Positions 39,550 to 53,827 of a DNA stretch of 64,000 nt are shown here, one piece after another. The notes beneath the pieces are model-generated. The model saw only the letters and a list, made by a program, of their open reading frames with translations. It ran no database searches and was not told where the DNA came from. The translations under genes and the position numbers were made by a program. Numbering within the stretch: position 1 is the stretch's first letter; each line of letters begins with the position of its first letter. The stretch comes from Burkholderiales bacterium PBB6 (GTDB lineage Bacteria > Pseudomonadota > Gammaproteobacteria > Burkholderiales > Burkholderiaceae_C). The stretch is from NCBI GenBank assembly GCA_002255925.1, contig NKIH01000001.1, positions 1,116,001-1,180,000 of the forward strand. The letters are read 5' to 3'.

Positions 39550-40302
39550 ATGAGCAACTTGATCACTGACCCGGCCTTTTACCTTGTCGCCATCCCGGCG
39601 GTGCTGCTGATGGGCATTTCCAAGAGCGGCTTCGGCGCGGGGTTCGGTGCGCTGGCGGTGCCGCTGATGGCCCTGGCTGTGCCCGTGCCGCAGGCGGCGG
39701 CCGTGATGCTGCCGCTGCTGGCCATCATGGACGCCATGGGCCTGATGGCACTGATCCGCCAGGCTGACAGGCCGCTGCTGGGCCTGCTGGTGCCCGCTGG
39801 CTTGCTGGGCACCGTCATCGGCACGGTGCTCTTCGGGTTGCTGTCGGCCAAGGTGGTGGCGGGCGTGGTGGGTGCCGTGACGCTGGCTTTCCTGGCGATC
39901 CGGCTGGTGTTTCCGCCCAGGGCAGATGCCCCGCCGCCGCCGCGCTGGCTCGGTTTTATGCTGGGCACCACGGCGGGCTTCACCAGCTTCGTGGCCCATG
40001 CGGGCGGGCCGCCGGTGGGCTTTTACCTGCTGCCGCAGCGGCTGGCGCCGGTGGTGTTCACGGCCACCACGGCCGTGCTGTTTGCGGTCATCAATGCGTC
40101 GAAGTGGGTGCCCTATGCCTGGCTGGGCCTGATCGACACCCGCAACCTGCTTACCTCACTGGTGCTGGCACCGCTGGCGCCGGTCGGGGTGTGGATCGGG
40201 CTGAAGGTGGTGCGGCACATCAACCCGGTCTGGTTCTACCGGCTGTTCCACCTCGGCATGGGCCTCACCGGCATCAAGCTGCTGTGGGATGGGCTGCACT
40301 GA
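39550..40302 (+). CDS. TauE/SafE family anion exporter
   Basis: 250 residues with about eight membrane helices and TSUP-type motifs GISKSGFGAGFGALAVPLM near the start and GFTSFVAHAGGPPVGFYLLP in the middle. The family exports sulfite, sulfoacetate or other organosulfur or carboxylate anions; substrate is unknown here. Its 3' end overlaps the convergent amidohydrolase gene by 29 bases. Confidence 0.88.
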   Translation: MSNLITDPAFYLVAIPAVLLMGISKSGFGAGFGALAVPLMALAVPVPQAAAVMLPLLAIMDAMGLMALIRQADRPLLGLLVPAGLLGTVIGTVLFGLLSAKVVAGVVGAVTLAFLAIRLVFPPRADAPPPPRWLGFMLGTTAGFTSFVAHAGGPPVGFYLLPQRLAPVVFTATTAVLFAVINASKWVPYAWLGLIDTRNLLTSLVLAPLAPVGVWIGLKVVRHINPVWFYRLFHLGMGLTGIKLLWDGLH

Positions 40303-41158
40303 AGCCCAGCAGGCGCATCGCGTTTTCCTTCAGGATGAGCGGCTTGACCTTGTCCTTGAAGCCGGCCTCGTCGAAGTCCTTCATCCAGCGCTCGGGCGTG
40401 ATCAGCGGGTAGTCGCTGCCGAACAGCATGCGGTCTTTCAGCAGGGTGTTGGCGTACTGCACCAGCTGCTGCGGGAAGTACTTCGGGCTCCAGCCGCTCA
40501 GGTCGATCCAGATGTTCGGCTTGTGCAGCGCCAGGCTCAGCGCCTCGTCCTGCCACGGCCAGCTGGGGTGGGCAATCACGATCTGGATGTCGGGGAAGTC
40601 GATCGCCACGTCTTCCAGCAGCATCGGATTGCTGTTCTGCAGCCGCAGGCCGCCACCGCAGCGCATGCCTGAGCCGATGCCCGAATGCCCGCTGTGGAAG
40701 ATGGCGGGCAGCTTGTACTCGGCGATCACCTCATACAGCGGCCAGGCCATGCGGTCGTAGGGCAGGAAGCCCTGCACGGTCGGGTGGAACTTGAAGCCCT
40801 TGACGCCGTGCTCCTCGATCAGCCGGCGGGCTTCACGCGCACCCATCTTGCCCTTGTGCGGGTCGATGCTGGCGAAGGCCACCATCATGTCGCTGTTCTT
40901 CTGCGCCGCGTCGCAGATCTCTTCGTTCGGGATGCGGCGCCGGCCCAGCTGCGATTCGCTGTCCACCGTGAACATCACCAGGCCGATCTTGCGCTCGCGG
41001 TAGTAGGCCACCGTCTCCTCGATGGTGGGGCGCAGGCTGGAGCCGAAGTACTTGTCCGCCGCGCGGTCGTATTCCTCGCCGTAGCTGTCAAACGGATTGC
41101 GGCAGGACACCTCGGCATGGGTGTGGATGTCGATGGCAATGAGCTCAGAGGTGTTCAT
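40274..41158 (-). CDS. Amidohydrolase-family C-C/C-N hydrolase, CouO-like candidate
   Basis: 294 residues of the amidohydrolase-2 family: metal-binding H12/H14 in DIHTHAE, KFHPTVQGF, FHSGHSG, IVIAHPSWPW and the catalytic Asp in LFGSDYPLI. It is divergent from a CoA-ligase/beta-oxidation operon. In Rhodococcus jostii CouO, a metal-dependent amidohydrolase, hydrolyses 4-hydroxyphenyl-beta-ketoacyl-CoA; the same role here is inferred from context, not from a residue-level signature. ATG 41158 lies 25 bases from the first palindrome of the divergent promoter. Alternative: decarboxylase or lactonase of the same family. Confidence 0.8.
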   Translation of the reverse strand: MNTSELIAIDIHTHAEVSCRNPFDSYGEEYDRAADKYFGSSLRPTIEETVAYYRERKIGLVMFTVDSESQLGRRRIPNEEICDAAQKNSDMMVAFASIDPHKGKMGAREARRLIEEHGVKGFKFHPTVQGFLPYDRMAWPLYEVIAEYKLPAIFHSGHSGIGSGMRCGGGLRLQNSNPMLLEDVAIDFPDIQIVIAHPSWPWQDEALSLALHKPNIWIDLSGWSPKYFPQQLVQYANTLLKDRMLFGSDYPLITPERWMKDFDEAGFKDKVKPLILKENAMRLLGFSAAHPTAA

Positions 41159-41183: not shown

Positions 41184-41208
41184 ATTTATTTAATTATGAG
41201 AACTAAAT
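41184..41208. promoter_or_regulatory. 25-bp palindromic operator, site 1
   Basis: ATTTATTT at 41184-41191 and AACTAAAT at 41201-41208 form an imperfect palindrome with 8-base arms and 9 bases between (7 of 8 paired). It ends 25 bases from the amidohydrolase start codon, so it overlaps that promoter. The reverse complement of site 2 aligns with it over the whole 25 bases with 18 identities by eye. Confidence 0.7.
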
Positions 41209-41320
41209 GCCCGGTCGGCAAGTGGCCGAAGTTGGTGGGGGCATGGCGCTGTCTACTCTGCAAATGCAGACCTAGGGTAAGGCCTCATAGGGTTTGTTCT
41301 GTCTGTCCGGGAAGGTGGCA

Positions 41321-41345
41321 ATTTAGTTCAATGTAATAAGTAAAT
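41321..41345. promoter_or_regulatory. 25-bp palindromic operator, site 2
   Basis: ATTTAGTT at 41321-41328 and AAGTAAAT at 41338-41345 form the second copy: same arm length and spacer as site 1. It ends 29 bases before the crotonase ATG, so it lies over the promoter of the catabolic operon. The MarR-type protein encoded last in that operon is the obvious candidate to bind both. Confidence 0.7.
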
Positions 41346-41374: not shown

Positions 41375-42196
41375 ATGTCAGATCACGCCGCCCTGCCTTT
41401 TGTTGCCGCCACCGGGGTGCTTGCCACCCTGGACTTGCTGAAGATCGAAACCCAGGGGCCGGTGCTGCACCTGCGCCTCGATCGGCCCGTCAAGCGCAAC
41501 GCCATCAGCGACAGCCTGATCCAGCAGATCCACACGGCCTTCATCAACCTGCCGGAAGAGATCCGCGCCGTGGTGGTGAGCGGCGAGGGCGCGCACTTCT
41601 GCGCCGGCCTCGATCTGTCTGAACTGGTGGAGCGTGACATTGGTGGTGCGGTGCTGCACTCCCGCATGTGGCATGCCGCGTTTGACGCGGTGCAATTCGG
41701 CCGCGTGCCGGTGGTGGCCGTGCTGCACGGCGCGGTGGTGGGCGGCGGGCTGGAGCTGGCCAGCGCCTGCCATGTGCGCGTCGCCGAAGACTCGGCCTAC
41801 TTCGGCCTGCCCGAAGGCCAGCGCGGCATCTTCGTGGGCGGCGGTGGCTCGGCCCGCATCCCGCGCCTGATCGGTGTGGCCCGCATGAGCGACCTGATGC
41901 TGACCGGCCGCGTGTTTGACGCCGACGAGGCGCAGCAGATGGCGCTGGTGAACTACCGCGCTGCGGATGGCGAAGGCCTGGCCCGTGGCCTGGCGCTGGC
42001 GCACCGCATCGCCACCAACGCACCGATGTCGAATTTCGCCGTGATGCACGCACTGCCGCGCATCGCTGACCAGTCGCAATCCGAGGGCCTGTTCACCGAG
42101 GCCCTGATGGCAGCGGTGGCCGAGAGCACGCCGGAAGCCCAGACCCGCCTGCGCGCTTTCCTGGAAGGCCGCGCCAGCAAGGTGGTGAAGTCATGA
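41375..42196 (+). CDS. Enoyl-CoA hydratase/crotonase family protein
   Basis: 273 residues. The crotonase core is clear: RPVKRNAIS, SGEGAHFCAGLDLSEL (oxyanion-hole region) and GGGLELASACHVRVAEDSAYFGLPEGQRG. Both hydratase Glu positions are kept: E127 in GGGLE and E147 in LPE, 20 residues apart as E144/E164 in rat mitochondrial hydratase. That favours true hydration of a cinnamoyl-CoA over the retro-aldol lyase. First gene of the operon; its stop overlaps the ligase start by four bases. No strong ribosome site is needed to decide the ATG, which is the only good start. Confidence 0.88.
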   Translation: MSDHAALPFVAATGVLATLDLLKIETQGPVLHLRLDRPVKRNAISDSLIQQIHTAFINLPEEIRAVVVSGEGAHFCAGLDLSELVERDIGGAVLHSRMWHAAFDAVQFGRVPVVAVLHGAVVGGGLELASACHVRVAEDSAYFGLPEGQRGIFVGGGGSARIPRLIGVARMSDLMLTGRVFDADEAQQMALVNYRAADGEGLARGLALAHRIATNAPMSNFAVMHALPRIADQSQSEGLFTEALMAAVAESTPEAQTRLRAFLEGRASKVVKS

Positions 42197-44070
42197 GCGC
42201 CGCAAGAGGCGCGCGTTGGCGCGATGCCCGGGTGGGCGGCTGCGTGGAGGCGGCGCTGGAACGCCGCGCCGATGGCGCCCAGGTGCTGCGCTCGGCCGAG
42301 CCGCTGGGCTGGTTCCCGGCGCGGCTGACTGACCCGCTGGAGCAATGGGCCGCTGAAGCGCCTGACCGCAGCTTCGTGGCCAAGCGCCACCAGGGCGGCG
42401 ACTGGCAGCACATCAGCTATGCCCAGATGCTGCAGCGCGCCCAAGCCGTGGGCCAGGCGCTGGCCGTGCGCGGCCTGGGGCCGGACCGCCCGGTGGCCAT
42501 CCTGTCTGACAACGACCTGGAGCACCTCACGCTGGTGCTGGGCGCCTTGTGGGCGGGTGTGCCGGTGGTACCGGTCTCGCCGGCCTACAGCCTTGTCTCA
42601 CAAGACTACGGCAAGCTGCGCCACATTCTGGGCACCGTCACGCCGGGCCTCGTGTTTGCAGCCAATGCGGCGTACGGCCGCGCCATTGCTGCGGTGGTGC
42701 CCGCCACCACCGAGGTGGTGTTGACCAGCGGCGCCATGGACGACCGCACCGTCACCCCGTTTGCTGACCTGCTGGCCACTGTGCCGGGCGAGGCGGGCGC
42801 GGCAGCGCATGCGGCCGTCGGCCCCGACACCATCGCCAAGTTCCTGTTCACGTCTGGCTCGACCAAGGCGCCCAAGGGCGTGGTGAATACCCACCGCATG
42901 ATGTGCGCGAATCTGCAGATGATTCGCCAGACCATGGCCTTCCTGGCCGACGAGCCGCCGGTGCTGGTCGACTGGCTGCCCTGGAACCATACCTTTGGTG
43001 GCAACCACAACGTCGGCATCGCGCTCTACAACGGCGGCACGCTGTACATCGACGAGGGCAAGCCCACGCCCAAGGGCATCCAGGAAACGCTGCGCAACCT
43101 GCGCGAGATTTCGCCCACCGTGTACTTCAACGTGCCCAAGGGCTTCGAGGAAATCGCGCGGGCCATGTCCACCGACACGGTGCTGCGTGACCGCCTGTTC
43201 GCCAACTGCAAGGCCTTCATGTTTGCAGGCGCCGGCCTGAGCCAGGCCGTGTGGGACCAGCTCGATGCCCACGGTGAAGCGGCCACCGGTGAGCGCGTGC
43301 GCATCATCACCGGCCTGGGCATGACCGAAACCGCGCCTTCGTGCACCTTCGCGGTGAACACCGATGTGCGCTCGGGCGACATCGGTTTGCCTGCGCCAGG
43401 CGTGGAAGTGAAGCTGGTGCCCGAAGCCGATGGCGGCCTGCATGGCAAGGTCGAGATCCGCTTCCGTGGCCCGCACGTGATGCCCGGCTACTGGCGCGCG
43501 CCGGAAGCCACCGCCGACGCGTTCGACGAAGAAGGCTTCTACAAGACCGGCGATGCGGTGGTGTGGGTGGACCCCGCCAACCCGCAGCGCGGCCTGCGCT
43601 TTGATGGCCGGCTGGCCGAAGACTTCAAGCTGTCCACCGGCACCTTCGTGAGCGTCGGCCCGCTGCGCGCCCGCGTGATCGCCGAGGGTGACCCCTGCGT
43701 GCAGGACGTGGTGGTGACGGGCTTGAACCGCGATGAGATCGGCCTGCTGATCTTCCCGCGGGCGGACGAATGCCGCCAGCTGGCGGGCCTGCCCGCCGGC
43801 ACGCCGCTGCCCGAGGTGCTGCACGCCGCACCGGTGCGCGCATTTTTCCAGGGCCTGGCCAACCGCCTCTGGGCGGCAGGCACGGGCAGCGCCAACCGGC
43901 CAACCCGCATGCACTTGCTGGCCGAGCCGCCGTCCATCGACCAGGGCGAGGTGACCGACAAGGGCTCGATCAACCAGCGTGCGGTGCTGGCCGTGCGCGC
44001 CGCGCTGGTGGAGGCGCTGTACGAGGGCGCCGCCAGCGACCCCTACGTCATCCTGCCGCAAACCCGCTGA
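42193..44070 (+). CDS. fcs: Feruloyl-CoA synthase-like aryl-CoA ligase
   Basis: 625 residues, the length of Fcs-type feruloyl-CoA synthases. ATP-binding TSGSTKAPKG at 220-229, GLGMTETAP near 376 and YKTGDAVVWVDPANPQRGLRFDGR near 450 are adenylate-forming enzyme motifs; the last replaces the usual D-R pattern with FDGRLAEDFKLSTG. It should activate a hydroxycinnamate with ATP and CoA. Gene order (crotonase, ligase, SDR) supports an aromatic acid substrate. Exact substrate, ferulate, p-coumarate or a relative, is not shown by sequence. Confidence 0.87.
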   Translation: MSAARGARWRDARVGGCVEAALERRADGAQVLRSAEPLGWFPARLTDPLEQWAAEAPDRSFVAKRHQGGDWQHISYAQMLQRAQAVGQALAVRGLGPDRPVAILSDNDLEHLTLVLGALWAGVPVVPVSPAYSLVSQDYGKLRHILGTVTPGLVFAANAAYGRAIAAVVPATTEVVLTSGAMDDRTVTPFADLLATVPGEAGAAAHAAVGPDTIAKFLFTSGSTKAPKGVVNTHRMMCANLQMIRQTMAFLADEPPVLVDWLPWNHTFGGNHNVGIALYNGGTLYIDEGKPTPKGIQETLRNLREISPTVYFNVPKGFEEIARAMSTDTVLRDRLFANCKAFMFAGAGLSQAVWDQLDAHGEAATGERVRIITGLGMTETAPSCTFAVNTDVRSGDIGLPAPGVEVKLVPEADGGLHGKVEIRFRGPHVMPGYWRAPEATADAFDEEGFYKTGDAVVWVDPANPQRGLRFDGRLAEDFKLSTGTFVSVGPLRARVIAEGDPCVQDVVVTGLNRDEIGLLIFPRADECRQLAGLPAGTPLPEVLHAAPVRAFFQGLANRLWAAGTGSANRPTRMHLLAEPPSIDQGEVTDKGSINQRAVLAVRAALVEALYEGAASDPYVILPQTR

Positions 44071-44086
44071 CCCCGAGGGAAAATCC

Positions 44087-44851
44087 ATGAACGTACAAGG
44101 ACAAGCCGCCCTGGTGACGGGCGGAGGCTCCGGCCTCGGTGAAGCCGTGGCGCGCGAACTGGCCCGCCTGGGCGCCCGCGTGGCGGTGCTCGACGTGAAC
44201 GCGGCCGGTGCGGCGCGCGTGGCTGCAGAGATCGGCGGCATCGCCTGCACCTGCGACATCACCAATGCCGATGACGTGACCGCGGCGCTTGATGCAGCGG
44301 AAGCGGCGCACGGCCCGGCCCGCATCCTGATGAACATCGCCGGCATCGGCACCGCCAAGCGGGTGATTGCCCGTGACGGCTCCCCCGCGCCGCTGGCTGA
44401 TTTCGAGCGCGTGGTCCGCATCAACCTGGTGGGCACCTACAACGTCATCCGCCTGGCCGCGGCCCGCATGGCCCGCCTGGACGGGCTGGACGACGGCGAG
44501 CGCGGCGTGATCGTCAACACCGCCTCGGTGGCGGCGTTCGACGGCCAGGTGGGCCAGGAAGCCTATGCGGCCTCGAAGGCCGGTGTGGCCGGCATGACGC
44601 TGCCGCTGGCGCGTGACCTGGCCCAGTGGGGCATCCGGGTCAACACCATTGCGCCGGGGCTGTTCGCCACGCCGCTGCTGCAGGAGTTGCCCGCCGAGGT
44701 GCAACAGTCGCTGGCGTCCTCGATTCCGTTCCCGAAGCGCCTGGGCCTGCCGGCCGAATTTGCCGCACTGGCCGCCCACATGGTGGCCAACGGCCACCTG
44801 AACGGCGAAGTGGTGCGCCTGGATGGCGCCCTGCGCATGGCGCCGCGCTGA
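44087..44851 (+). CDS. SDR-family 3-hydroxyacyl-CoA dehydrogenase-like protein
   Basis: 254 residues. NAD-binding [10 protein letters not shown] near 11-20, the NIAGIG loop, and the catalytic S-x-Y-x-x-x-K pattern in [23 protein letters not shown]. The C-terminal [18 protein letters not shown] resembles type-II 3-hydroxyacyl-CoA dehydrogenases (HSD17B10-like). In context it would oxidise the 3-hydroxy intermediate to the beta-keto-CoA. Start is 16 bases after the ligase stop. Confidence 0.85.
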
Positions 44852-44903
44852 CCCTGTTTGAGTTCCTTCCCCCGTTCGAGACACAACACGTTTGGAGACT
44901 CCC

Positions 44904-46055
44904 ATGACCCGACCCTCCCGTCCGTTTGTTCGCAGCCTGATGACCGCTGCCGTGCTGGGGCTGGCTGCCACGGCCGCCCTGGCCGATCTGACCATCGGCG
45001 TCAGCCTGCCGCTGACCGGCCCTGCGTCGGGCCTGGGCCTGCCGGTGCAGAACTACATCAAGCTCTGGCCGACCTCGATCGCCGGCGAGAAGCTCAAGGT
45101 CATCGTGCTGGATGACGCCACCGACCCGACGCGCGGTGTGCAGAACGCCCGTCGTTTCGTGACGGAAGACAAGGTCGACGTGATCATGGGCTCGGCCGCC
45201 ACCCCGGTGGTGATTCCGATGGCCGACGTGGCCTTTGAAACCCAGACGCCGCAGCTGATGCTGTCGCCCGGCGTGCTGGTGGCCGGCAAGGACGCGTGGT
45301 CGTTCCGCCTGCCCCAGGGCAATGCGGTGATGGCGCATGCGCTGATCGAACACATGAAGAAGCTCAACGTGAAGACGCTGGGCTTCCTGGGCTACACCGA
45401 TGCCTACGGCGAAAGCTGGCTGAAGGACTTCCAGGACCAATCCGCACTGCTGGGCGGCCCGAAGATCGTCGCCACCGAGCGCTTCGCACGCTCGGACACC
45501 AGCGTCACCGCGCAGGCGCTGAAGCTGGTCTCGGCCAACCCGGACGCGATGCTGGTGGTGGCCTCGGGCAGCGGTGCCGCGATGCCGCACAAGGCGCTGA
45601 TCGAGCGCGGCTACAAGGGCCGCATCTACCAGACGCACGCCGCAGCCTCGCGCGATTTGATGCGCGTTGGCGGCAAGGACGTGGAAGGCTCGTTCGTGGT
45701 GTCCGGCCCGGCCGTGGTGCCTGAGCAACTGGCCGCTGGCCACCCGTCGAAGGCGCTGGCACAGGACTACGTCAACAAGTACGAAGCCGCGTATGGCAAG
45801 GGCAGCCGCAACCAGTTCGGCGCCCATGCGTTCGACGCCGTGGTGGTGCTGGAAAAGGCCGTGCCGATGGCGCTGAAGAAGGCCCGCCCGGGCACCCCGG
45901 CGTTCCGTGCCGCGCTGCGTGAGGCGTTTGAAACGATGGGCCGCACGCCGGTATCGCAAGGCGTGCTGAACTACACCAAGGACAACCACTGGGGTTTCAC
46001 CACCGAAACTGGTGTCATCCTCAAGGTGGTGAATGGCGACTGGAAGGTGGAGTGA
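44904..46055 (+). CDS. Liv-type ABC transporter substrate-binding protein
   Basis: 383 residues with a signal peptide ending ATAALA and the Peripla_BP_6 fold (LTIGVSLPLTGPASGLGLP, DDATDPTRGVQNARRFVTEDKVDVIMGSA, LGFLGYTDAYGESW). The family covers branched-chain amino acids and, in many soil bacteria, aromatic acids; its place inside the ligase operon suggests an aromatic acid such as a hydroxycinnamate. ATG 44904 has a GGAG ribosome site. Followed by permease and ATPase genes. Confidence 0.87.
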   Translation: MTRPSRPFVRSLMTAAVLGLAATAALADLTIGVSLPLTGPASGLGLPVQNYIKLWPTSIAGEKLKVIVLDDATDPTRGVQNARRFVTEDKVDVIMGSAATPVVIPMADVAFETQTPQLMLSPGVLVAGKDAWSFRLPQGNAVMAHALIEHMKKLNVKTLGFLGYTDAYGESWLKDFQDQSALLGGPKIVATERFARSDTSVTAQALKLVSANPDAMLVVASGSGAAMPHKALIERGYKGRIYQTHAAASRDLMRVGGKDVEGSFVVSGPAVVPEQLAAGHPSKALAQDYVNKYEAAYGKGSRNQFGAHAFDAVVVLEKAVPMALKKARPGTPAFRAALREAFETMGRTPVSQGVLNYTKDNHWGFTTETGVILKVVNGDWKVE

Positions 46056-46103
46056 TCCACCCCCTGAAGCGCCCGTGTTCTTGAACCAGAGGTAGACAGG
46101 CCC

Positions 46104-47141
46104 ATGGACTTTTCAATTGCCAGCATCCTGGCCCTGGACGGAGTGACCAACGGCGCGGTGTACGCGCTGCTGGCCCTGGCCACGGTGCTGTTGTTCGCCG
46201 TGACGCGGGTGATCTTCATCCCGCAGGGCGAGTTCGTGGCCTTCGGGGCACTCACGCTGGCCATGATGCAGGCCGGCACCGTACCAGGCACCGTGTGGCT
46301 GGTGCTGGTGCTGGCCGGCCTGGCCGCGCTGCAGGAGGCGGTGGCGGGCTGGCGCGCGCACCGGCCCTTGCGGCACACGCTGCGGGCCGTGCTGGGCGTG
46401 CTGGCCTGGCCCGTGGTGGCCGCGCTGGTGGTGCGCTGGGCGGCTCCGCAGCAGTTCCCGCTGGGGGTGCAGGCCGTGCTGACGCTGGCGCTGGTCACCC
46501 CGCTGGGTGGCCTGATCTACCGACTGGCCTATGAATCGCTGGCTGATGCCAGCGTGCTGGTGCTGCTCATCGTCTCGGTGGGCGTGCACTTCGTGCTGAC
46601 CGGCCTGGGCCTGTATGCCTTCGGCGCTGAAGGCTTCCGCAACCCGCCGTTCTGGGACGAGCGCTTCGCCTGGGGCCCGCTCACCCTGTCGGGCCAGACG
46701 CTGATCGTCTTCGGCGTGTCAATGGCGCTGATCGTGATGCTGTGGCTGTTCTTCGAGCGCTCGCTCTGGGGCAAGGCCCTGCGCGCCACGGCGGTGAACC
46801 GCCTGGGTGCGCGGCTGATGGGCATTTCGTCCACCGGTGCCGGCCGCCTCAGCTTCACGATGGCCGCTTTCATCGGTGCCTTGTCGGGCCTGCTGATCGG
46901 GCCGACCACCACCATCTTTTATGACTCCGGTTTCCTGATCGGCCTCAAGGGCTTCGTGGCAGCGGTGTTCGCCGGCCTGTCCAGCTATCCGCTGGCGCTG
47001 GTGGGCGCACTGGGTGTCGGCCTGCTGGAGAGCTTCGGCTCGTTCTGGGCCAGCGCCTTCAAGGAAGTGATCGTGTTCGGCGCGATCCTGCCGGTGTTGT
47101 TGTGGCGCTCGCTGCGCGACCCCCATGTGGAAGAGCACTGA
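46104..47141 (+). CDS. livH: Branched-chain-type ABC permease LivH
   Basis: 345 residues with about nine membrane helices. Start [29 protein letters not shown] and the C-terminal [27 protein letters not shown] block are typical of LivH; about 50 extra residues (the ARG-rich stretch near 75-110) make it longer than usual. It forms half of the permease with the LivM part of the next gene, one base downstream. Confidence 0.87.
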
Positions 47142-47142
47142 G

Positions 47143-48912
47143 ATGCGCAACCTTTCCAAGTTCATCCTGCCGCTGCTGTGCGCGGCCATGTTGCTGGTGC
47201 CGGCCCTGCCGGTGCCCGAGTTCTGGATCACCCAGCTGAACTACATCGGCCTGTATGCGCTGGTGGCGCTGGGCCTGGTGGTGCTGACCGGCGTGGCCGG
47301 GCTCACCAGCTTCGGCCAGGCGGCGTTTGTGGGCGTCGGCGCCTACACCACGGCCTGGCTGACCACCGCGATGCAGGTCTCGCCCTGGCTGGCGTTGCTG
47401 GTGGGTGTGGCGCTCGCCGTGCTGGTGGCGCTGGTGCTGGGCGTGCTCACGCTGCGCATGTCGGGCCACTACCTGCCGCTGGCCACCATCTGCTGGGGCC
47501 TGGCGCTGAACTACACCATGGCCAACATGGAGTTCCTCGGCAAGTACGACGGCATCCTGGGCGTGCCGGCTCTGAGCATCGGCGACATGTCGCTGGCCAG
47601 CGGCCGCTCGATGTACGTGCTGATCTGGGTTACCGCACTTGGCGCGGCGATTGCGGTGATGCACCTGCTGGATTCGCGTCCGGGCCGGGCCATTCGCGCG
47701 CTGAAGAACGGCACCACGATGGCCGAGGCCATGGGCATCTCCACCTTCCGCTACAAGATGGTGGCCTTCGTGCTGGCGGCTGTGCTGGCGGCGCTGTCGG
47801 GCTGGCTGTTTGCGCACTTCCAGCGCACGGTCAATCCGTCGCCATTCAGCCTCGCCAAGGGCATCGAGTTCCTGTTCATGGCGGTGGTCGGCGGCGTGGG
47901 CCATGTGTGGGGCGCCTTCACCGGTGCAGCCGTGGTCAAGCTGCTGGAAGACCAGTTGCAGGTGATCCTGCCGGCACTGATCGGCAGCAGCGGCAACTTC
48001 GAAACCATCGTCTTCGGCCTGGTGTTGATCGGCGTGCTGAAGTACGTGCCGGACGGCCTCTGGACCTTCGTGAAAAGGCTGCTGCCGGCACAACAGCGTG
48101 AGCGCGACTGGGTAGGCGCTGCGCCGCTGCCCAGCCGCAGCAAGCCGGTGGCCGGTGAGGTGCTGCTCGACGTCAACAAGGTGCGCAAGCAGTTTGGTGG
48201 CCTGGTGGCGGTGAACGACATCAGCTTCACCATCCGCGCGGGCGACATCATGGGCCTGATCGGCCCGAACGGCGCCGGCAAGTCGACCACCTTCAACCTG
48301 GTTTCGGGCGTGCTGGGGCTGACGAGCGGCCAGGTGAACTTCCGGGGCCGCAACGTGGCCGGCTTGTCGTCGCGGCAGATCGCCCGCGCAGGCATGAGCC
48401 GCACCTTCCAGCACGTGAAGATGATCCCCGAGATGACGGTGCTGGAAAACGTGGCGCTGGGTGGCTACCTGCGTACCTCCAGCGGCGCCTTGAAGGCCAT
48501 GTTGCGCCTGGACCGCGAAGAAGAGCGCCGCCTGTTCGCCGAAGCCGAGGCGCAACTGCAGCGCATCGGCATGGCGGACAAGCTGCACGAGCTGGCCGGC
48601 AACCTGGCGCTCGGGCCGCAACGCCTGATGGAGATTGCGCGCGCGCTGTGCACCGACCCCTCGCTGCTGCTGCTGGACGAGCCCGCCGCCGGCTTGCGCC
48701 TGAAGGAAAAGCAGGCGCTGGCCGATGTGCTGCGGCAGCTGAAGGCCGAAGGGCTGTCCATCCTGCTGGTGGAGCACGACATGGACTTCGTCATGGGCCT
48801 GGTCGATCACATCACCGTGATGGAGTTCGGCACCAAGCTGATCAGCGGCACGCCCGCGCAAGTGCAAGCCAGCCCCGAAGTGCGGGCGGCCTACCTGGGC
48901 ACGGAACACTGA
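47143..48912 (+). CDS. Fused LivM permease and LivG ATPase
   Basis: 589 residues. Residues 1-325 are a LivM permease (LTGVAGLTSFGQAAFVGVGAYTTAWL, FLFMAVVGGVGHVWGAFTGAAVV); after a short linker the rest is a LivG ATPase with Walker A GPNGAGKS (374-381), RTFQHVKMIPEMTVLENV, LALGPQRLMEIARAL in place of a plain LSGGQ, and LLLLDEPAAGL. Permease-ATPase fusions of this kind are known in betaproteobacteria. Starts one base after livH stop and ends one base before livF. Confidence 0.88.
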   Translation: MRNLSKFILPLLCAAMLLVPALPVPEFWITQLNYIGLYALVALGLVVLTGVAGLTSFGQAAFVGVGAYTTAWLTTAMQVSPWLALLVGVALAVLVALVLGVLTLRMSGHYLPLATICWGLALNYTMANMEFLGKYDGILGVPALSIGDMSLASGRSMYVLIWVTALGAAIAVMHLLDSRPGRAIRALKNGTTMAEAMGISTFRYKMVAFVLAAVLAALSGWLFAHFQRTVNPSPFSLAKGIEFLFMAVVGGVGHVWGAFTGAAVVKLLEDQLQVILPALIGSSGNFETIVFGLVLIGVLKYVPDGLWTFVKRLLPAQQRERDWVGAAPLPSRSKPVAGEVLLDVNKVRKQFGGLVAVNDISFTIRAGDIMGLIGPNGAGKSTTFNLVSGVLGLTSGQVNFRGRNVAGLSSRQIARAGMSRTFQHVKMIPEMTVLENVALGGYLRTSSGALKAMLRLDREEERRLFAEAEAQLQRIGMADKLHELAGNLALGPQRLMEIARALCTDPSLLLLDEPAAGLRLKEKQALADVLRQLKAEGLSILLVEHDMDFVMGLVDHITVMEFGTKLISGTPAQVQASPEVRAAYLGTEH

Positions 48913-48913
48913 C

Positions 48914-49642
48914 ATGAGCCAATCCATTCTTTCGGTACAGGGCCTGCACGCGGGCTACGGCAAGGCCGAGGTGCTCTCGGGCCTCAGCCTGGAGCTGCCG
49001 CGCGGCTCGGTCGTCACCGTCATCGGCCCCAACGGCGCCGGCAAATCCACCACGCTGAATGCGTTGATGGGCGTGCTGCCGTCCCGTGGGCGGGTGATGT
49101 TCGACGGCCAGGACATCAGCGACAGCACGCTTGAAGACCGCGTGATGGCGGGCCTGGCGCTGGTGCCTGAAAAGCGCGAGCTGTTCGGCACCATGTCGGT
49201 CGAAGACAACCTGGTGCTGGGCGGCTTCAAGCCGATGCGCCAGCGCGTGCCTCAGTGGCGCAGCACGCTCGATGAGGTCTACACCATCTTCCCGCGCCTG
49301 AAAGAGCGGCGCGTGCAGCTGGCCGGCACCTTGTCGGGCGGCGAGCGCCAGATGCTGGCCGTGGGCCGCGCCCTGATGAGCCGGCCCAAGGTGCTGATGC
49401 TCGATGAGCCCAGCCTGGGCCTGGCGCCGCTGGTGGTGAAGGACATCTTCCGCACCATCACCCAGCTGCGCTCGACCGGCGTGAGCATCCTGCTGATCGA
49501 GCAGAACGCGCGGGCTGCGCTCGAAGTGGCCGACCACGGCTACGTGCTGGAGACCGGCGCCGTGGCGCTGGAAGGCCCGGCCAGCGCGCTGGCCACCGAC
49601 TCCCGCGTGATCGACACCTACCTCGGCGCCAAGAAGCACTGA
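48914..49642 (+). CDS. livF: Branched-chain-type ABC ATP-binding protein LivF
   Basis: 242 residues: Walker A GPNGAGKS near 37, signature LSGGERQMLAVGRALMSRPKVLMLDEPSLGLAPLVVKDIF. Walker B and the D-loop are complete. It pairs with the LivG half of the previous protein to drive the transporter. Confidence 0.9.
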   Translation: MSQSILSVQGLHAGYGKAEVLSGLSLELPRGSVVTVIGPNGAGKSTTLNALMGVLPSRGRVMFDGQDISDSTLEDRVMAGLALVPEKRELFGTMSVEDNLVLGGFKPMRQRVPQWRSTLDEVYTIFPRLKERRVQLAGTLSGGERQMLAVGRALMSRPKVLMLDEPSLGLAPLVVKDIFRTITQLRSTGVSILLIEQNARAALEVADHGYVLETGAVALEGPASALATDSRVIDTYLGAKKH

Positions 49643-49646
49643 GCTC

Positions 49647-49673
49647 GGCCACCGGCCTTCGGGCCTGGTGGCC
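49647..49673 (+). terminator. Strong hairpin with UUCG loop between livF and the acyl-CoA dehydrogenase gene
   Basis: GGCCACCGGCC pairs with GGCCTGGTGGCC around a TTCG loop: seven and four pairs with a one-base bulge. There is no T-run after it, so it is more likely a stability or attenuation hairpin than a full terminator. It falls in the 53-base gap of the operon. Confidence 0.55.
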
Positions 49674-49695
49674 CCCTCCCGAAAGCCTTTTCCCG

Positions 49696-51492
49696 ATGTG
49701 GCACTACAGCCCCCCGCTGCGCGATTGGCGCTTCGTGATCGACGATGTGTTGCAGGCGCCCGCCGCCTGGGCCGCGATGCCGGCCCTGGCACACTGCGAC
49801 GCTGACACGGCCGCGCTGGTGCTGGCCGAAGCCGGCAAGTTCACCGCGGAAGTGCTGGCCCCGTTGAACGGCCCCGGCGATGTGCAGGGCTGCCAGTGGA
49901 CGGCTGGTGAGGTGCGCACGCCGGATGGTTATGCCCAGGCCTACCAGGCCTTCGTGGATGGTGGCTGGCCCGCACTCGCGGCGCCGGAGGATGCCGGCGG
50001 GCAGGGCCTGCCGCACCTGCTGAACGCAGCGCTGAACGAGATGCTGGCCTCGGCCAACCATGGCTGGACCATGTACCCCGGCCTGCTGCAGGGCGCGATG
50101 GATTGCCTGTATGCCCACGCCACGGACACTTTGCGTGAGCGCTACCTGCCGAAGGTGGTGAGCGGCGAATGGTTGTCCACCATGTGCCTGACCGAGCCGC
50201 AGGCCGGCAGTGACCTTGGGCTCATCCGCACCCGCGCCGTGCCGCTGCCTGGCACCGCTGGCAGCGCCGAGCCGGCCTATGCGCTCTCAGGCACCAAGAT
50301 CTTCATCTCGGGTGGCGAGCATGACCTCACGCCGAACATCGTGCACCTGGTGCTGGCCCGGCTGGATGACTCGGCCCACGGACCGGCGCCGGTGGGCACC
50401 CGCGGCCTGACGCTGTTTGTCTGCCCGAAGCTGCTGCCCGACGGCAGCCGCAACGGCGTGCACTGCGACGGCATCGAACACAAGATGGGCATCAAGAGCA
50501 GCGCCACCTGCGTGATGCGCTTTGATGGCGCCACCGGCTGGATGCTGGGTGAGCCGCACCGCGGCCTGGCCGCGATGTTTTTGATGATGAACTCGGCGCG
50601 CCTGCATGTGGGCCTGCAAGGCCTTGGCCACCTGGAAGTGGCCACCCAGAACGCGCTGCGGTATGCGCAAGAGCGGCTGCAATCGCGGGCGCCCGCACGG
50701 CCGGCCGAGGTGCCTGCAGCGGGCGTCGACCCGGTGAGTTTTCACCCGGCTGTGCGCCGCACGTTGTGGCGCCTGAAGGCCCGCACCGAAGCCGGCCGCG
50801 TGCTGGCCGCCTGGGCCGCGCAGGCGCTGGACGAGCAGCACGGCCACACCGATGCCGCCATGCGTGACGACGCCGGCCACCGCGCCGCGCTGCTCACGCC
50901 GGTCATCAAGGCGCTGCTCACCGACCTGGGTCACCACGGTGCTGATGAAGCGCTGGGCGTGTGGGGCGGCCATGGTTATCTGCGTGACTGGGGCATCGAG
51001 CAGGTGGTGCGCGACAGCCGCGTGTCGATGATCTACGAGGGCACCAACCAGATCCAGGCGCAAGACCTGCTGCTGCGCAAGGTGCTGGTCGACGGCGGCG
51101 CGCGGCTGGCCTCGTTGCTGGCATGGGCTTCGGCCCAGTGCGAGGGCAGTGTGCATGCCCCCGCTGCACGCAACAGCCTGCAGTTGGTTGGCGAGGCGGC
51201 AACCCAGCTGAAAGCCGATGCCGCCAACGATGGCGAGCTGCCGTTCCGCGCGGCAGATGCCTGGCTGATGGCCCTGGGCGAAGCGCTGCTGGCCTGCGCC
51301 TGGGCCCGCATGGACGCGGTGGCAGCCAAGGCACTGGCCGCCGGCGAGGGCGATGCTTCGTTGTTGCAGGCCAAGCAGGCCACGGCGCGCTTCCAGTTCA
51401 CCCACCTGGCCGGTGAGGTGCCGCGCTGGCTGAGCGAGGTGGCTGCGGCGCGCCATCCGATCGAGTTCCTGCCCGACGCCGTCGCGGGCTGA
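49696..51492 (+). CDS. Acyl-CoA dehydrogenase (DmdC-like subgroup)
   Basis: 598 residues, longer than the 380-400 of simple acyl-CoA dehydrogenases and close to the 590-600-residue DmdC/FadE-like subgroup. FAD-binding motif CLTEPQAGSDLG, LSGTKIFISGGEHDL and the catalytic Glu of IYEGTNQIQAQD (E448). Under the proposed route it could reduce-saturate the wrong way, so its likely job is oxidation of saturated phenylpropanoyl-CoA to the cinnamoyl-CoA before hydration. Its operon position is consistent but not proof. Confidence 0.87.
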   Translation: MWHYSPPLRDWRFVIDDVLQAPAAWAAMPALAHCDADTAALVLAEAGKFTAEVLAPLNGPGDVQGCQWTAGEVRTPDGYAQAYQAFVDGGWPALAAPEDAGGQGLPHLLNAALNEMLASANHGWTMYPGLLQGAMDCLYAHATDTLRERYLPKVVSGEWLSTMCLTEPQAGSDLGLIRTRAVPLPGTAGSAEPAYALSGTKIFISGGEHDLTPNIVHLVLARLDDSAHGPAPVGTRGLTLFVCPKLLPDGSRNGVHCDGIEHKMGIKSSATCVMRFDGATGWMLGEPHRGLAAMFLMMNSARLHVGLQGLGHLEVATQNALRYAQERLQSRAPARPAEVPAAGVDPVSFHPAVRRTLWRLKARTEAGRVLAAWAAQALDEQHGHTDAAMRDDAGHRAALLTPVIKALLTDLGHHGADEALGVWGGHGYLRDWGIEQVVRDSRVSMIYEGTNQIQAQDLLLRKVLVDGGARLASLLAWASAQCEGSVHAPAARNSLQLVGEAATQLKADAANDGELPFRAADAWLMALGEALLACAWARMDAVAAKALAAGEGDASLLQAKQATARFQFTHLAGEVPRWLSEVAAARHPIEFLPDAVAG

Positions 51493-51515
51493 GTCGTCTC
51501 CTATCATTGCGGCCC

Positions 51516-52031
51516 ATGCCAGCTTCGAAGTCCCTGTCTTCTGCCGCCCCGGTGGCGCCTGCCGCCAAGTCCGCCTCCGCGCCTGCAGCCGCGCTTGACC
51601 AGTCCGGCCTGAGTCACCTGGTGGGCTATGCCAGCACGCTGGCCTCGGTGCTGCTGAAAAAGGCCTTCCAGAAACACCTCGGCGCCCTGAAGCTCAAGGC
51701 GGTGGAGTTCTCCATCTTGGTGCTGGTGGACACCAACCCCGAGGTCAACCAGAAGCAGCTGGGCGCGGCCATTGACGTGGCGCCGCCCAACCTCGCGATG
51801 ATCCTCGACCGCATGGCGGAGCAGGGCTGGGTGCGCCGTGAACGCTCGGAACGCGACCGCCGCGCCCAGCTCATCCGCCTCACGCCCGAGGGCCAGGCCC
51901 TGACGACGCGCGCCCGCAAGATCGCGCTCAGCATGGAAGCCGAAGCGCTCAAGAACCTCAGCGCGGCCGAGCAGGCCATGTTGCTGGAGTTGCTGCAGCG
52001 CGTGGCCCGTGGCCGCGGCGCCGCCCGCTGA
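51516..52031 (+). CDS. MarR-family transcriptional regulator
   Basis: 171 residues with an Ala/Ser/Pro-rich N-tail, then a MarR winged helix: LKAVEFSILVLVDTNPEVNQKQLGAAIDVAPPNLAMILDRMAEQGWVRRERSERDRRAQLIRLTPEG, with the DxRxxxxxLT wing. Last gene of the catabolic operon, so autoregulated if it binds the two palindromes upstream. MarR proteins of hydroxycinnamate operons (CouR, FerC, HcaR types) are released by the CoA thioester. ATG 51516 is 23 bases after the dehydrogenase stop. Confidence 0.88.
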   Translation: MPASKSLSSAAPVAPAAKSASAPAAALDQSGLSHLVGYASTLASVLLKKAFQKHLGALKLKAVEFSILVLVDTNPEVNQKQLGAAIDVAPPNLAMILDRMAEQGWVRRERSERDRRAQLIRLTPEGQALTTRARKIALSMEAEALKNLSAAEQAMLLELLQRVARGRGAAR

Positions 52032-52366
52032 GCCGGGTTGCTGCGCCGGCCACGCAGCCGGCAATCTTGAGCCGCCGCACGTAACCGTTGGCACACGCGT
52101 CTGGCCGTGATGGCCGGGCTGGGGGCCTGCCCGGCGCCTGCTGTGAACGCCGCCCGACGGGTGCATTTGTGTACTTCGCACATTGGCAAACCGTTACATC
52201 AGTGACGAGTCTGCGGCTACTACTTGCACGGCGCAAAATGAAAAAATCTGCATTGCGGTAAAGTGCGTGCCGGCGAGACAGCGATGTCCCGCCTCCGGGC
52301 CTTCCCCGCCCGTCAGCATGAGCCAGCAGAGCCCGGCGACGGCCACAGTCGATGGGACAAGAACCA
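52032..52366. promoter_or_regulatory. 335-bp intergenic region before the AraC-type gene
   Basis: No gene found. The first 130 bases are GC-rich; 52165-52265 is A/T-richer. It contains TGTG-N7-CACA at 52168-52182 (TGTG 52168-52171, CACA 52179-52182) and A/T-rich patches around 52225-52260, a likely promoter area for the regulator. The dyad resembles the one before the DUF5666 gene. Confidence 0.4.
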
Positions 52367-53827
52367 ATGAGTGCAGAGCAGCAGTTGCAGGCTTGGGCGT
52401 GCGTGGCGGAGCGGCTTCAGGCCGACGGGGTGGAGGATGCGGCGAGGGCAGAAGGCGAGTTGTTGAGCCTGCTGCAGGAAATACGGCTGGAGCGCGGCAC
52501 CGTGATGCGGGCGCGTGGCCTGCTGGCCGTGTACGGGCGCGTGGCGGGCCTGGTGAGCGCCCCCGCGGCACTCGATGACCTGCGGCTGGCCCGGCGGGTC
52601 TTTCGCAGCAACCAGCGCTGGCAGGAAGAGGCGCGCTGTCTGCAGATGATTGCCGTGGCCCTGCGCGAACGTGGCGCCATGACGGCCTGCGTGGCCGTGG
52701 TGCGCCACACGCTGATGATGGGGCTGCTGTCGATGTCGGAGCGGGCCGATGTGGCCCACACCGGCGTGCAGGCCCAGATGGCGCTGCTGCAGTTTGACGA
52801 TGCCGACATCTGGGCCCAGCGCTACATCCGCCCCTACCTGACCGGCGCGGCGCAGGCCACCGACCGCCAGTGCGAGTTGTGGCTGGGCTTGTGCCAGCTG
52901 CACCTGCAGCAGTATGAGCGGGCGCTGGCGCGCCGCAGCGTCTACACCCTCGATCTGTCGGCCGACCACCCACCCGACACGGTGCTGGCGGGCCTGTGCC
53001 TGGACAAGGCCCGGCAGAGCCTGACCGCGGCCTCGGCCTGCGCGCAGGGCATGCTGGCGCGCCAGCAGGTGCAGATGCTCGGCATGGTGATGAACGGCCG
53101 CGACGGTGACCTGGCCAGTGCGCGCGCCGTGTTCGACGAACTGCGGCTGTCCTGGGCGGGCGCGCCCGCCGCCTTCCAGGTGGCGCTGCAATGGCACTTC
53201 GCCGGCGTGCTGCGTGACCAGGGCGTGCCGGAGGCGGCCCTGCGCGTGCTGGGCCAGGGGCTGGAGCTGGCGCGCCGCCATCAGGCCGACCACTGGTTGC
53301 CCGTCCTGCTGTTCACCATGGCGCAACTGGCCCAGGAGCAGGGCCGCGCCGCCCAGGCGGCCGAGTGCTATGACGCCTTCATCCAGCTGCATGCCTCGGC
53401 CCTGCGCAATTCGGTGTCGTGGTTCACCGATGCGGAAGACCTGGCCACCTTCGGCCCGCCGCCGGACCCGGTGGCGATGCAGCCGGCGCCGTTGACCGCG
53501 CGGCCGGGCTTTCTGCAGCGCGCGCTGGACCTGCTGGCCGCCAACGACTTCCGGCCGATGGACGTGGACAGCGTGGCTCGCAGCGTGCACGTCAGTCGCC
53601 GCACGCTGGAGCAGGCGGTGCGCAAGTTCGAGGACAAGAGCCTGCTGGAGCTGATGCGTGACCGCCGCATGGGCATCGCCATGCACCGGGTGCGCACCAC
53701 CGACCTGCCGCTGCAGGAACTGGCTCACGCGCTGGGCTACCAGAGCGGGGGCTCCTTCGCCCGGGATTTCAAGAAGGTGTTTGGCCTGGCGCCGAGCGCC
53801 GTGCGCTCAGGGTTGGACAGCCGCTGA
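52367..53827 (+). CDS. AraC-type regulator with TPR-like N-terminal domain
   Basis: 486 residues. The C-terminal 100 residues are an AraC helix-turn-helix: MDVDSVARSVHVSRRTLEQAVRKFEDKSLLELMRDRRM and the second helix pair LPLQELAHALGYQSGGSFARDFKKVFGLAPSAVR. The first 360 residues are helical repeats of TPR or MalT-like type (for example FDDADIWAQRYIRPYLTG, QCELWLGLCQLHLQQYERALARRS). That layout is unusual for AraC. Start ATG 52367 is preferred over 52352 for a weak GGGA upstream. The 3' end overlaps the convergent EAL-like gene by 21 bases. Confidence 0.82.
   Translation: MSAEQQLQAWACVAERLQADGVEDAARAEGELLSLLQEIRLERGTVMRARGLLAVYGRVAGLVSAPAALDDLRLARRVFRSNQRWQEEARCLQMIAVALRERGAMTACVAVVRHTLMMGLLSMSERADVAHTGVQAQMALLQFDDADIWAQRYIRPYLTGAAQATDRQCELWLGLCQLHLQQYERALARRSVYTLDLSADHPPDTVLAGLCLDKARQSLTAASACAQGMLARQQVQMLGMVMNGRDGDLASARAVFDELRLSWAGAPAAFQVALQWHFAGVLRDQGVPEAALRVLGQGLELARRHQADHWLPVLLFTMAQLAQEQGRAAQAAECYDAFIQLHASALRNSVSWFTDAEDLATFGPPPDPVAMQPAPLTARPGFLQRALDLLAANDFRPMDVDSVARSVHVSRRTLEQAVRKFEDKSLLELMRDRRMGIAMHRVRTTDLPLQELAHALGYQSGGSFARDFKKVFGLAPSAVRSGLDSR

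Follow-up and report, generated by a model that had tools for sequence, protein, structure and literature searches.

The divergent promoter region between an amidohydrolase gene and a hydratase-ligase operon in the window, the whole 64,000-nucleotide stretch of Burkholderiales bacterium PBB6 DNA analyzed here, contains two matching 25-bp palindromes, which we designated site A and site B. We propose, with a probability of roughly 0.8, that these palindromes are operators of the MarR-type regulator encoded by the last gene of the operon, that this regulator controls both arms of the locus and is released by an aryl-CoA, and that a third operator is located at an esterase gene elsewhere in the genome.

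Twin palindromes, flanking genes and the MarR-type regulator

Sites A and B are imperfect palindromes; when one is inverted, the two agree at 18 of 25 positions (72%). Their 8-bp outer arms, ATTTATTT/AACTAAAT in site A and ATTTAGTT/AAGTAAAT in site B, are matched at 7 of 8 positions and enclose a spacer of 9 bp. The gap between the two sites is 112 bp, and the site-to-site offset is 137 bp. The end of site A is 25 bp away from the start codon of the amidohydrolase gene (ATG at 41158, minus strand), and for site B the distance to the ATG at 41375 is 29 bp. The original prediction of twin 25-bp sites with like arms and spacer, an 18-of-25 reversed alignment, and distances of 25 to 29 bases from the start codons was confirmed in its coordinates and counts.

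The 4,412,824-bp genome has three occurrences of the exact pattern ATTTANTTN9AANTAAAT, two of which are sites A and B, and none of the reversed pattern, which was used as a control. This is in line with the earlier expectation that a symmetric pair of this kind is unlikely by chance. A 20-base palindromic pattern with three mismatches occurred at four places in the same genome versus zero for its control. When up to two mismatches were allowed in the first pattern, seven places were obtained versus four for the control; therefore, close matches alone are informative and no further targets are claimed. With the family matrix, which was trained partly on sites A and B, the next-best place in the window scored 1.2 bits, overlapping shifted matches aside. 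Among 399 genomes of the family, the exact pattern was present in eight including its own, with one place in each of the other seven; the reversed control was also present in seven genomes, and outside its own genome the exact pattern is therefore no commoner than the control. Three of these seven places (L012 to L014) are approximately 100 bp upstream of an orthologous hydratase gene (74–78% identity), and a fourth (L009) precedes a stretch with weak similarity to the hydratase (34% over 59 residues). The exact pattern was absent from the five other genomes of the same genus among the 399, which showed a degenerate motif only.

The sole σ70-like match in the region, TTGCCG-17-CATAAT, is on the minus strand and has its −10 sequence inside site A; no promoter-like match was found in the intergenic region on the side of site B. 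Between the two sites, at 41268–41305 of the window, are CCTAGGGTAA and ATAGGGTTTG, a possible site for another regulator. TAGGG or CCCTA is present in 31 of 81 upstream regions, as a raw count without a control. A CCTAGGGTAAAC-like element between the sites was rejected as a candidate: the 12-mer with one mismatch occurred at two places in the genome versus two for the control.

The plus-strand operon extends from 41375 to 52031 (10.66 kb) and closes with the MarR gene, as had been predicted for an operon of 10.7 kb (Table 1). Genes assigned by family to ligase, hydratase, hydroxyacyl dehydrogenase, amidohydrolase, and importer occur together, which is the combination of a cou/phd-type beta-oxidative cluster, and the gene set as read from its sequence resembles known hydroxycinnamate (cou/phd) clusters. 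An AraC-type gene with a TPR-like N-terminal part follows the MarR gene at 52352–53827; no relative of it was found in the best 80 of 100 cluster loci, many of which end near or before that position.

Table 1. Candidate operator sites and genes of the divergent locus (positions are those of the window unless a contig is given)
Feature	Position	Strand	Score or basis
Site A, operator-like palindrome before amidohydrolase gene	41184..41208		27.5 bits
Site B, operator-like palindrome before hydratase-ligase operon	41321..41345		30.1 bits
Third exact-pattern site	G000:C20:78419-78443 = L004:8419-8443		other contig, unlinked to window cluster
Amidohydrolase_2 family gene, putative CouO-like role	40274..41158	-	PF04909 164.9 bits
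Enoyl-CoA hydratase/crotonase family gene	41375..42196	+	PF00378; NCBIfam PRK08150 387 bits, cut-off 232
Acyl-CoA synthetase (ligase)	42193..44070	+	PF00501; NCBIfam PRK12582 724 bits, below cut-off 777
Short-chain dehydrogenase	44087..44851	+	PF00106; putative start at ATG within ORF 43979-44851
LivK-type periplasmic binding protein, nearest CouP group	44892..46055	+	PF13458
ABC permease, LivH-like	46104..47141	+	PF02653
Fused ABC permease and ATPase, LivM-LivG-like	47125..48912	+	PF02653, PF00005
ABC ATPase, LivF-like	48914..49642	+	PF00005
Acyl-CoA dehydrogenase family gene	49696..51492	+	PF00441, PF02770, others
MarR-type regulator, CouR-like, final gene of operon, proposed repressor of both arms	51507..52031	+	PF01047 50.7 bits

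The best PDB sequence match of the MarR protein was CouR of R. palustris (71.7 bits; the next match reached 45.1). Its AF2 model (pLDDT 77.8) had the DNA-bound CouR structure 6c2s as the best fold match (E 7.4e-10, 32% identity, TM 0.88 by target), with MexR a close second (8.8e-09). The score with the NCBIfam Saro_0803 family transcriptional regulator was 75 bits, below the cut-off of 200. Across the group of 65–73% identity the recognition-helix region hardly varies, and it is similar in the group of 38–45%; a MarR gene was visible in 42 of the 80 cluster loci (best 80 of 100), several contigs ending early. Since this regulator comes nearest to CouR, a repressor responsive to p-coumaroyl-CoA, a single repressor that senses a CoA thioester and acts on both arms appears to be the best reading, and the MarR protein very probably binds both site A and site B. 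The earlier suggestion that one MarR repressor could control both operons thus gains support by comparison, from the kinship with CouR and the conserved pair. The RHA1-type CouR box, cATTGA-N5-TCAATg, was found in neither site A nor site B. According to the part of the source available, the CouR proteins of RHA1 and R. palustris differ from each other in site sequence (PMC9594313); the RHA1 box therefore does not define the CouR kind.

The LivK-type binding protein scored 345–355 bits with the CouP group (3uk0 355, 3tx6 350, and 4jb0 349), a group that has structures with bound ferulate (4jb0), coumarate (4f8j), and caffeate (4fb4). Three chains of uninformative name gave 276–289 bits, and among the matches listed the other chains, including leucine/isoleucine/valine-binding proteins, gave 62 bits or less. 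In R. palustris, the CouPSTU importer, likewise of LivK type, belongs to the CouR regulon (PMC3610893, in the part available). The best solved relatives of the ligase are malonyl-CoA ligases at approximately 92 bits, and since its NCBIfam score is also below the cut-off, the ligase substrate is not fixed by sequence.

Conservation of the site pair in relatives

A hydratase scan was performed, and the best 80 of 100 loci were kept. In 42 of the 80, at least 110 bp separated a recognized divergent gene from the hydratase gene; the other 38 had a shorter distance, no recognized divergent gene, or a contig end. A matrix was built from L043, L046, and L052, in which both sites are at corresponding positions and in closely similar form, leaving 39 held-out regions. 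The MarR proteins of L043 and L052 are 72–73% identical to that of the window, and the L046 contig stops before MarR. A top site with p ≤ 0.05 was observed in 35 of the 39 held-out regions and both sites in 25, two significant sites being missing in 14; with 20 column-permuted symmetric matrices on the same regions, one site was obtained in a mean of 8.2 (maximum 16) and two sites in a mean of 2.9 (maximum 9). No significant top site was detected in four held-out regions (L032, L042, L056, and L057).

A second set was obtained by an amidohydrolase search of the 399 family genomes, which gave 153 matches at E ≤ 1e-100, and upstream DNA was taken from 40 of the first 45 listed places (the own genome, G259, G090, G358, and G352 were omitted). 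Seven of the 40 were without a hydratase within approximately 3.2 kb, two were too short, and 31 were scored; 10 of these duplicated earlier regions, leaving 21 further regions. Both sites exceeded 5 bits in 15 of the 21, compared with a mean of 0.67 (maximum 3) in 200 shuffles and 1.8 (maximum 7) with 50 permuted matrices. The 21 regions were not thinned among themselves (the sites of L192 and L195 are identical), and because of this and the common ancestry of the relatives, the regions are not independent trials. Thus the palindromes, whose loss from relatives keeping the genes had been named beforehand as counter-evidence, are kept as a pair in both sets far above the controls. Many Burkholderiales share the twin-site arrangement, including some with an esterase gene beside the hydratase gene.

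The gene divergent from the hydratase gene in the 42 regions was for an amidohydrolase in 31, a tannase-family esterase in six, a thiolase in three, and a CoA-transferase in two. Both sites were significant in all six esterase regions and in one of the five thiolase or CoA-transferase regions (thiolase, one of three, namely L053; CoA-transferase, none of two); in the CoA-transferase region L045, the boundary of the scored region fell within the second site, and the site itself is visible in that locus. The thiolase genes of L050, L053, and L059 and the CoA-transferase genes of L045 and L056 stand at the position of the amidohydrolase gene of the window, as if the final step of side-chain removal had been exchanged. 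A PF07519 gene is present in 12 of the 80 cluster loci (best 80 of 100) and is divergent from the hydratase gene in six of them; an amidohydrolase gene is directly behind the divergent esterase gene in five of these six, and L019 shows none. The same esterase arrangement was observed in four of the 21 further regions (L183, L200, L213, and L215). This position of the esterase gene on the divergent arm in relatives agrees with the unlinked, operator-tagged esterase gene of the window genome described below. Hydrogenophaga loci, including L087 and L095, have another palindrome, TTTTGGTTATTGTTTATAACAATAA, before the hydratase gene, present as a single site in these two, which suggests a regulator of other specificity for the same pathway.

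A third site and the tannase-family esterases

On contig C20, 48 bp separate the end of the third exact-pattern site from the ATG of a gene assigned to the tannase/feruloyl-esterase family (PF07519, 425.9 bits); the gene product is predicted from its N-terminus to be exported. With a matrix made from the cluster sites only, the third site excluded, this site scored 26.5 bits; the 99.99th percentile of a background of 748,556 25-mers was 3.8 bits, and the few equally high values were the loci's own cluster sites. A weaker match of 16.7 bits, which overlaps a T-rich stretch, is located 68 bp upstream of the esterase site (L004:8351-8375), and given this match the C20 esterase gene may also have a twin site. 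The gene upstream of the esterase gene (L004:5260-8280) encodes a large M60/IMPa-like metalloprotease-family protein (PF18642, PF13402). Another weaker site (G000:C26:29554-29578, L006:1501-1525; 16.8 bits) is approximately 80 bp before a GH5 cellulase-family gene; this plant-cell-wall hydrolase might possibly share the regulon as a fourth target.

A second PF07519 esterase gene of the same genome (G000:C25:363546-365899; L113, L148, L217) is divergent from the gene of a 44%-identical MarR paralogue, and in the promoter region of the paralogue two sites of related type occur 65 bp apart, both of them weaker (11.2 and 14.5 bits). Comparable esterase-MarR pairs in divergent orientation were seen in G259, G399, G405, G407, and G408.

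The nearest solved relative of the C20 esterase is MHETase (8ekg, 356 bits), and the next outside MHETase is the fungal feruloyl esterase B-1 (131 bits). In the alignment with MHETase, the C20 esterase has Gly for Ser131 (GGSG; putative column) and Asn for Glu226 after the catalytic Ser, in the residue numbering of the MHETase report (PMC7568301, in the part available). Because Ser131 and Glu226 are absent, the gene was filed as a tannase/feruloyl-esterase family gene and not as MHETase. A 43%-identical gene, G433:C104, was taken from its score as that of I. sakaiensis MHETase; unlike at the C20 gene, an operator-like site was not found there, the best score being −7.3 bits. Three PF07519 genes are listed for Ideonella livida (G436, the genome of L050); one of them, which stands upstream in a tandem pair, has a 25.7-bit site. 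Among 18 esterase loci from five genomes, one scored above 20 bits, four scored 6–12 bits, and 13 scored below 5 bits (L172 and L173 being pieces of one gene); the operator link therefore holds for particular near relatives and not for the whole family.

The odds seem to us even that the MHETase-nearest esterases of Ideonella and related Burkholderiales belong to a hydroxycinnamoyl-CoA regulon, through an operator if unlinked or by position in the cluster, that their natural substrates are plant hydroxycinnamate esters, and that MHETase is an offshoot that has left the regulon. The descent of MHETase-like esterases from feruloyl esterases has been argued by sequence comparison in the available part of an earlier report (PMC7568301).

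Proposed control of the locus and its place among known systems

In the proposed mechanism, one MarR dimer on site A would block the amidohydrolase promoter, and a second dimer on site B would block the hydratase-ligase-dehydrogenase-transporter-MarR operon, the MarR gene being autoregulated via site B. Plant hydroxycinnamates such as p-coumarate and ferulate would be imported and then activated by the ligase, and the aryl-CoA thioester would release MarR and turn both arms on. The third operator would extend this control to a feruloyl-esterase-like enzyme of the tannase family, and ester cleavage, import, and beta-oxidation, as the enzyme activities are predicted, would answer one signal. We infer separate-dimer repression, aryl-CoA release, and autoregulation from the anatomy of the locus and from CouR, HcaR, FerC, and PhdR as described in the available parts of the corresponding reports (PMC4737184, PMC5487221, PMC10458429, PMC7593625).

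The operon's acyl-CoA dehydrogenase gene would be in keeping with saturated side chains; a gene of this kind is used for phloretate in P. fluorescens (PMC12642758, in the part available), and the sequence of the ligase does not fix its substrate. The sites could accordingly be operators of this MarR protein with another aryl-CoA (dihydrocinnamoyl-CoA or cinnamoyl-CoA) or a free acid as the inducer, in a phenylpropanoid route other than that of p-coumarate or ferulate. We regard this as rather unlikely, since the nearest MarR (CouR) and the nearest binding proteins (the CouP group) point to hydroxycinnamates. It is quite unlikely that the sites belong to another regulator such as the 44%-identical paralogue at C25: the CouR-like protein is the MarR encoded in the operon itself, its gene stays with the cluster, and in the three relatives with closely similar twin sites the MarR, where seen (two of three), is 72–73% identical, even though the promoter region of the paralogue has its two related-type sites and some cluster loci show no MarR in the DNA covered.

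Less probable still is joint action of A and B through a DNA loop or cooperative complex in place of separate operators. The first-set spacings near 90, 98–100, 110, and 120 bp (R 0.73 at 10.5 bp, 33 regions) would fit it, as would R 0.55 at 10.0 bp in the new set (uncorrected p approximately 0.01, one of ten periods tried); however, R at 10.5 bp was 0.19 in the new set (15 regions), the spacing varies from 69 to 180 bp where both sites exceed 5 bits, and the 137 bp of the window does not fall in phase with the main classes. Helical phasing was rejected as the 10.5-bp signal was not replicated, the unique spacings of both sets giving R 0.42 at 10.0 bp. Because of the 69- to 180-bp range and the failed 10.5-bp phasing, no fixed loop is claimed. 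Finally, mere AT-rich promoter sequence with chance symmetry is very improbable: neither dinucleotide shuffles nor column-permuted symmetric matrices reproduced the conservation, and the own genome has its three exact places against none for the control, which outweighs for us the promoter-like −10 inside site A and the equal frequency of pattern and control in other genomes.

With the operon's own MarR as the repressor of the twin sites, the window system would be one of the hydroxycinnamate repressor-operator systems of CouR type, in this case with twin operators and a regulon that includes an esterase. Sequence comparison supports a switch that is essentially ordinary and belongs to a known kind. 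Corynebacterium glutamicum, a member of another phylum, has phd genes that form a gene set like the window cluster, and in Acinetobacter baylyi ADP1 the esterase gene hcaG is in the same operon as the hydroxycinnamate genes of HcaR, unlike in the window genome, where the esterase gene is tagged by a distant site. As far as the available parts of the sources describe them, PhdR, a regulator of MarR type, responds to phenylpropanoids in their CoA-activated form (PMC7593625), and HcaR is a hydroxycinnamate repressor of the MarR family (PMC5487221, PMC10458429), but the A. baylyi route is non-beta-oxidative (PMC10458429). The R. palustris cou system (CouR, CouAB, CouPSTU) shares with the window the MarR repressor nearest in sequence and fold, ligase and hydratase genes, and a palindromic operator (PMC9594313). 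On the other hand, its route is described in the part of the report available as one without beta-oxidation (PMC3610893), whereas the window gene set suggests beta-oxidation ending in an amidohydrolase. In R. jostii RHA1, again from the accessible part of the source, side-chain removal is initiated by a ligase, is beta-oxidative, and ends in the amidohydrolase CouO; CouR has several boxes at several promoters and is released by p-coumaroyl-CoA, and divergent couN/couR have a single box (PMC4737184), whereas the window has two sites of other sequence.

In the open-access literature, no description was found of a CouR-type regulon that includes a tannase- or MHETase-like gene. The placement of MHETase-nearest esterases within this regulon or cluster in several Burkholderiales, with the presumed MHETase gene lacking the site, appears mildly new. 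The AT-rich palindrome pair thus leads to a defined regulon for which a repressor, a ligand class, three operators, and target genes are predicted, and the operator at MHETase-like tannase-family esterases would provide regulatory evidence on their natural job.
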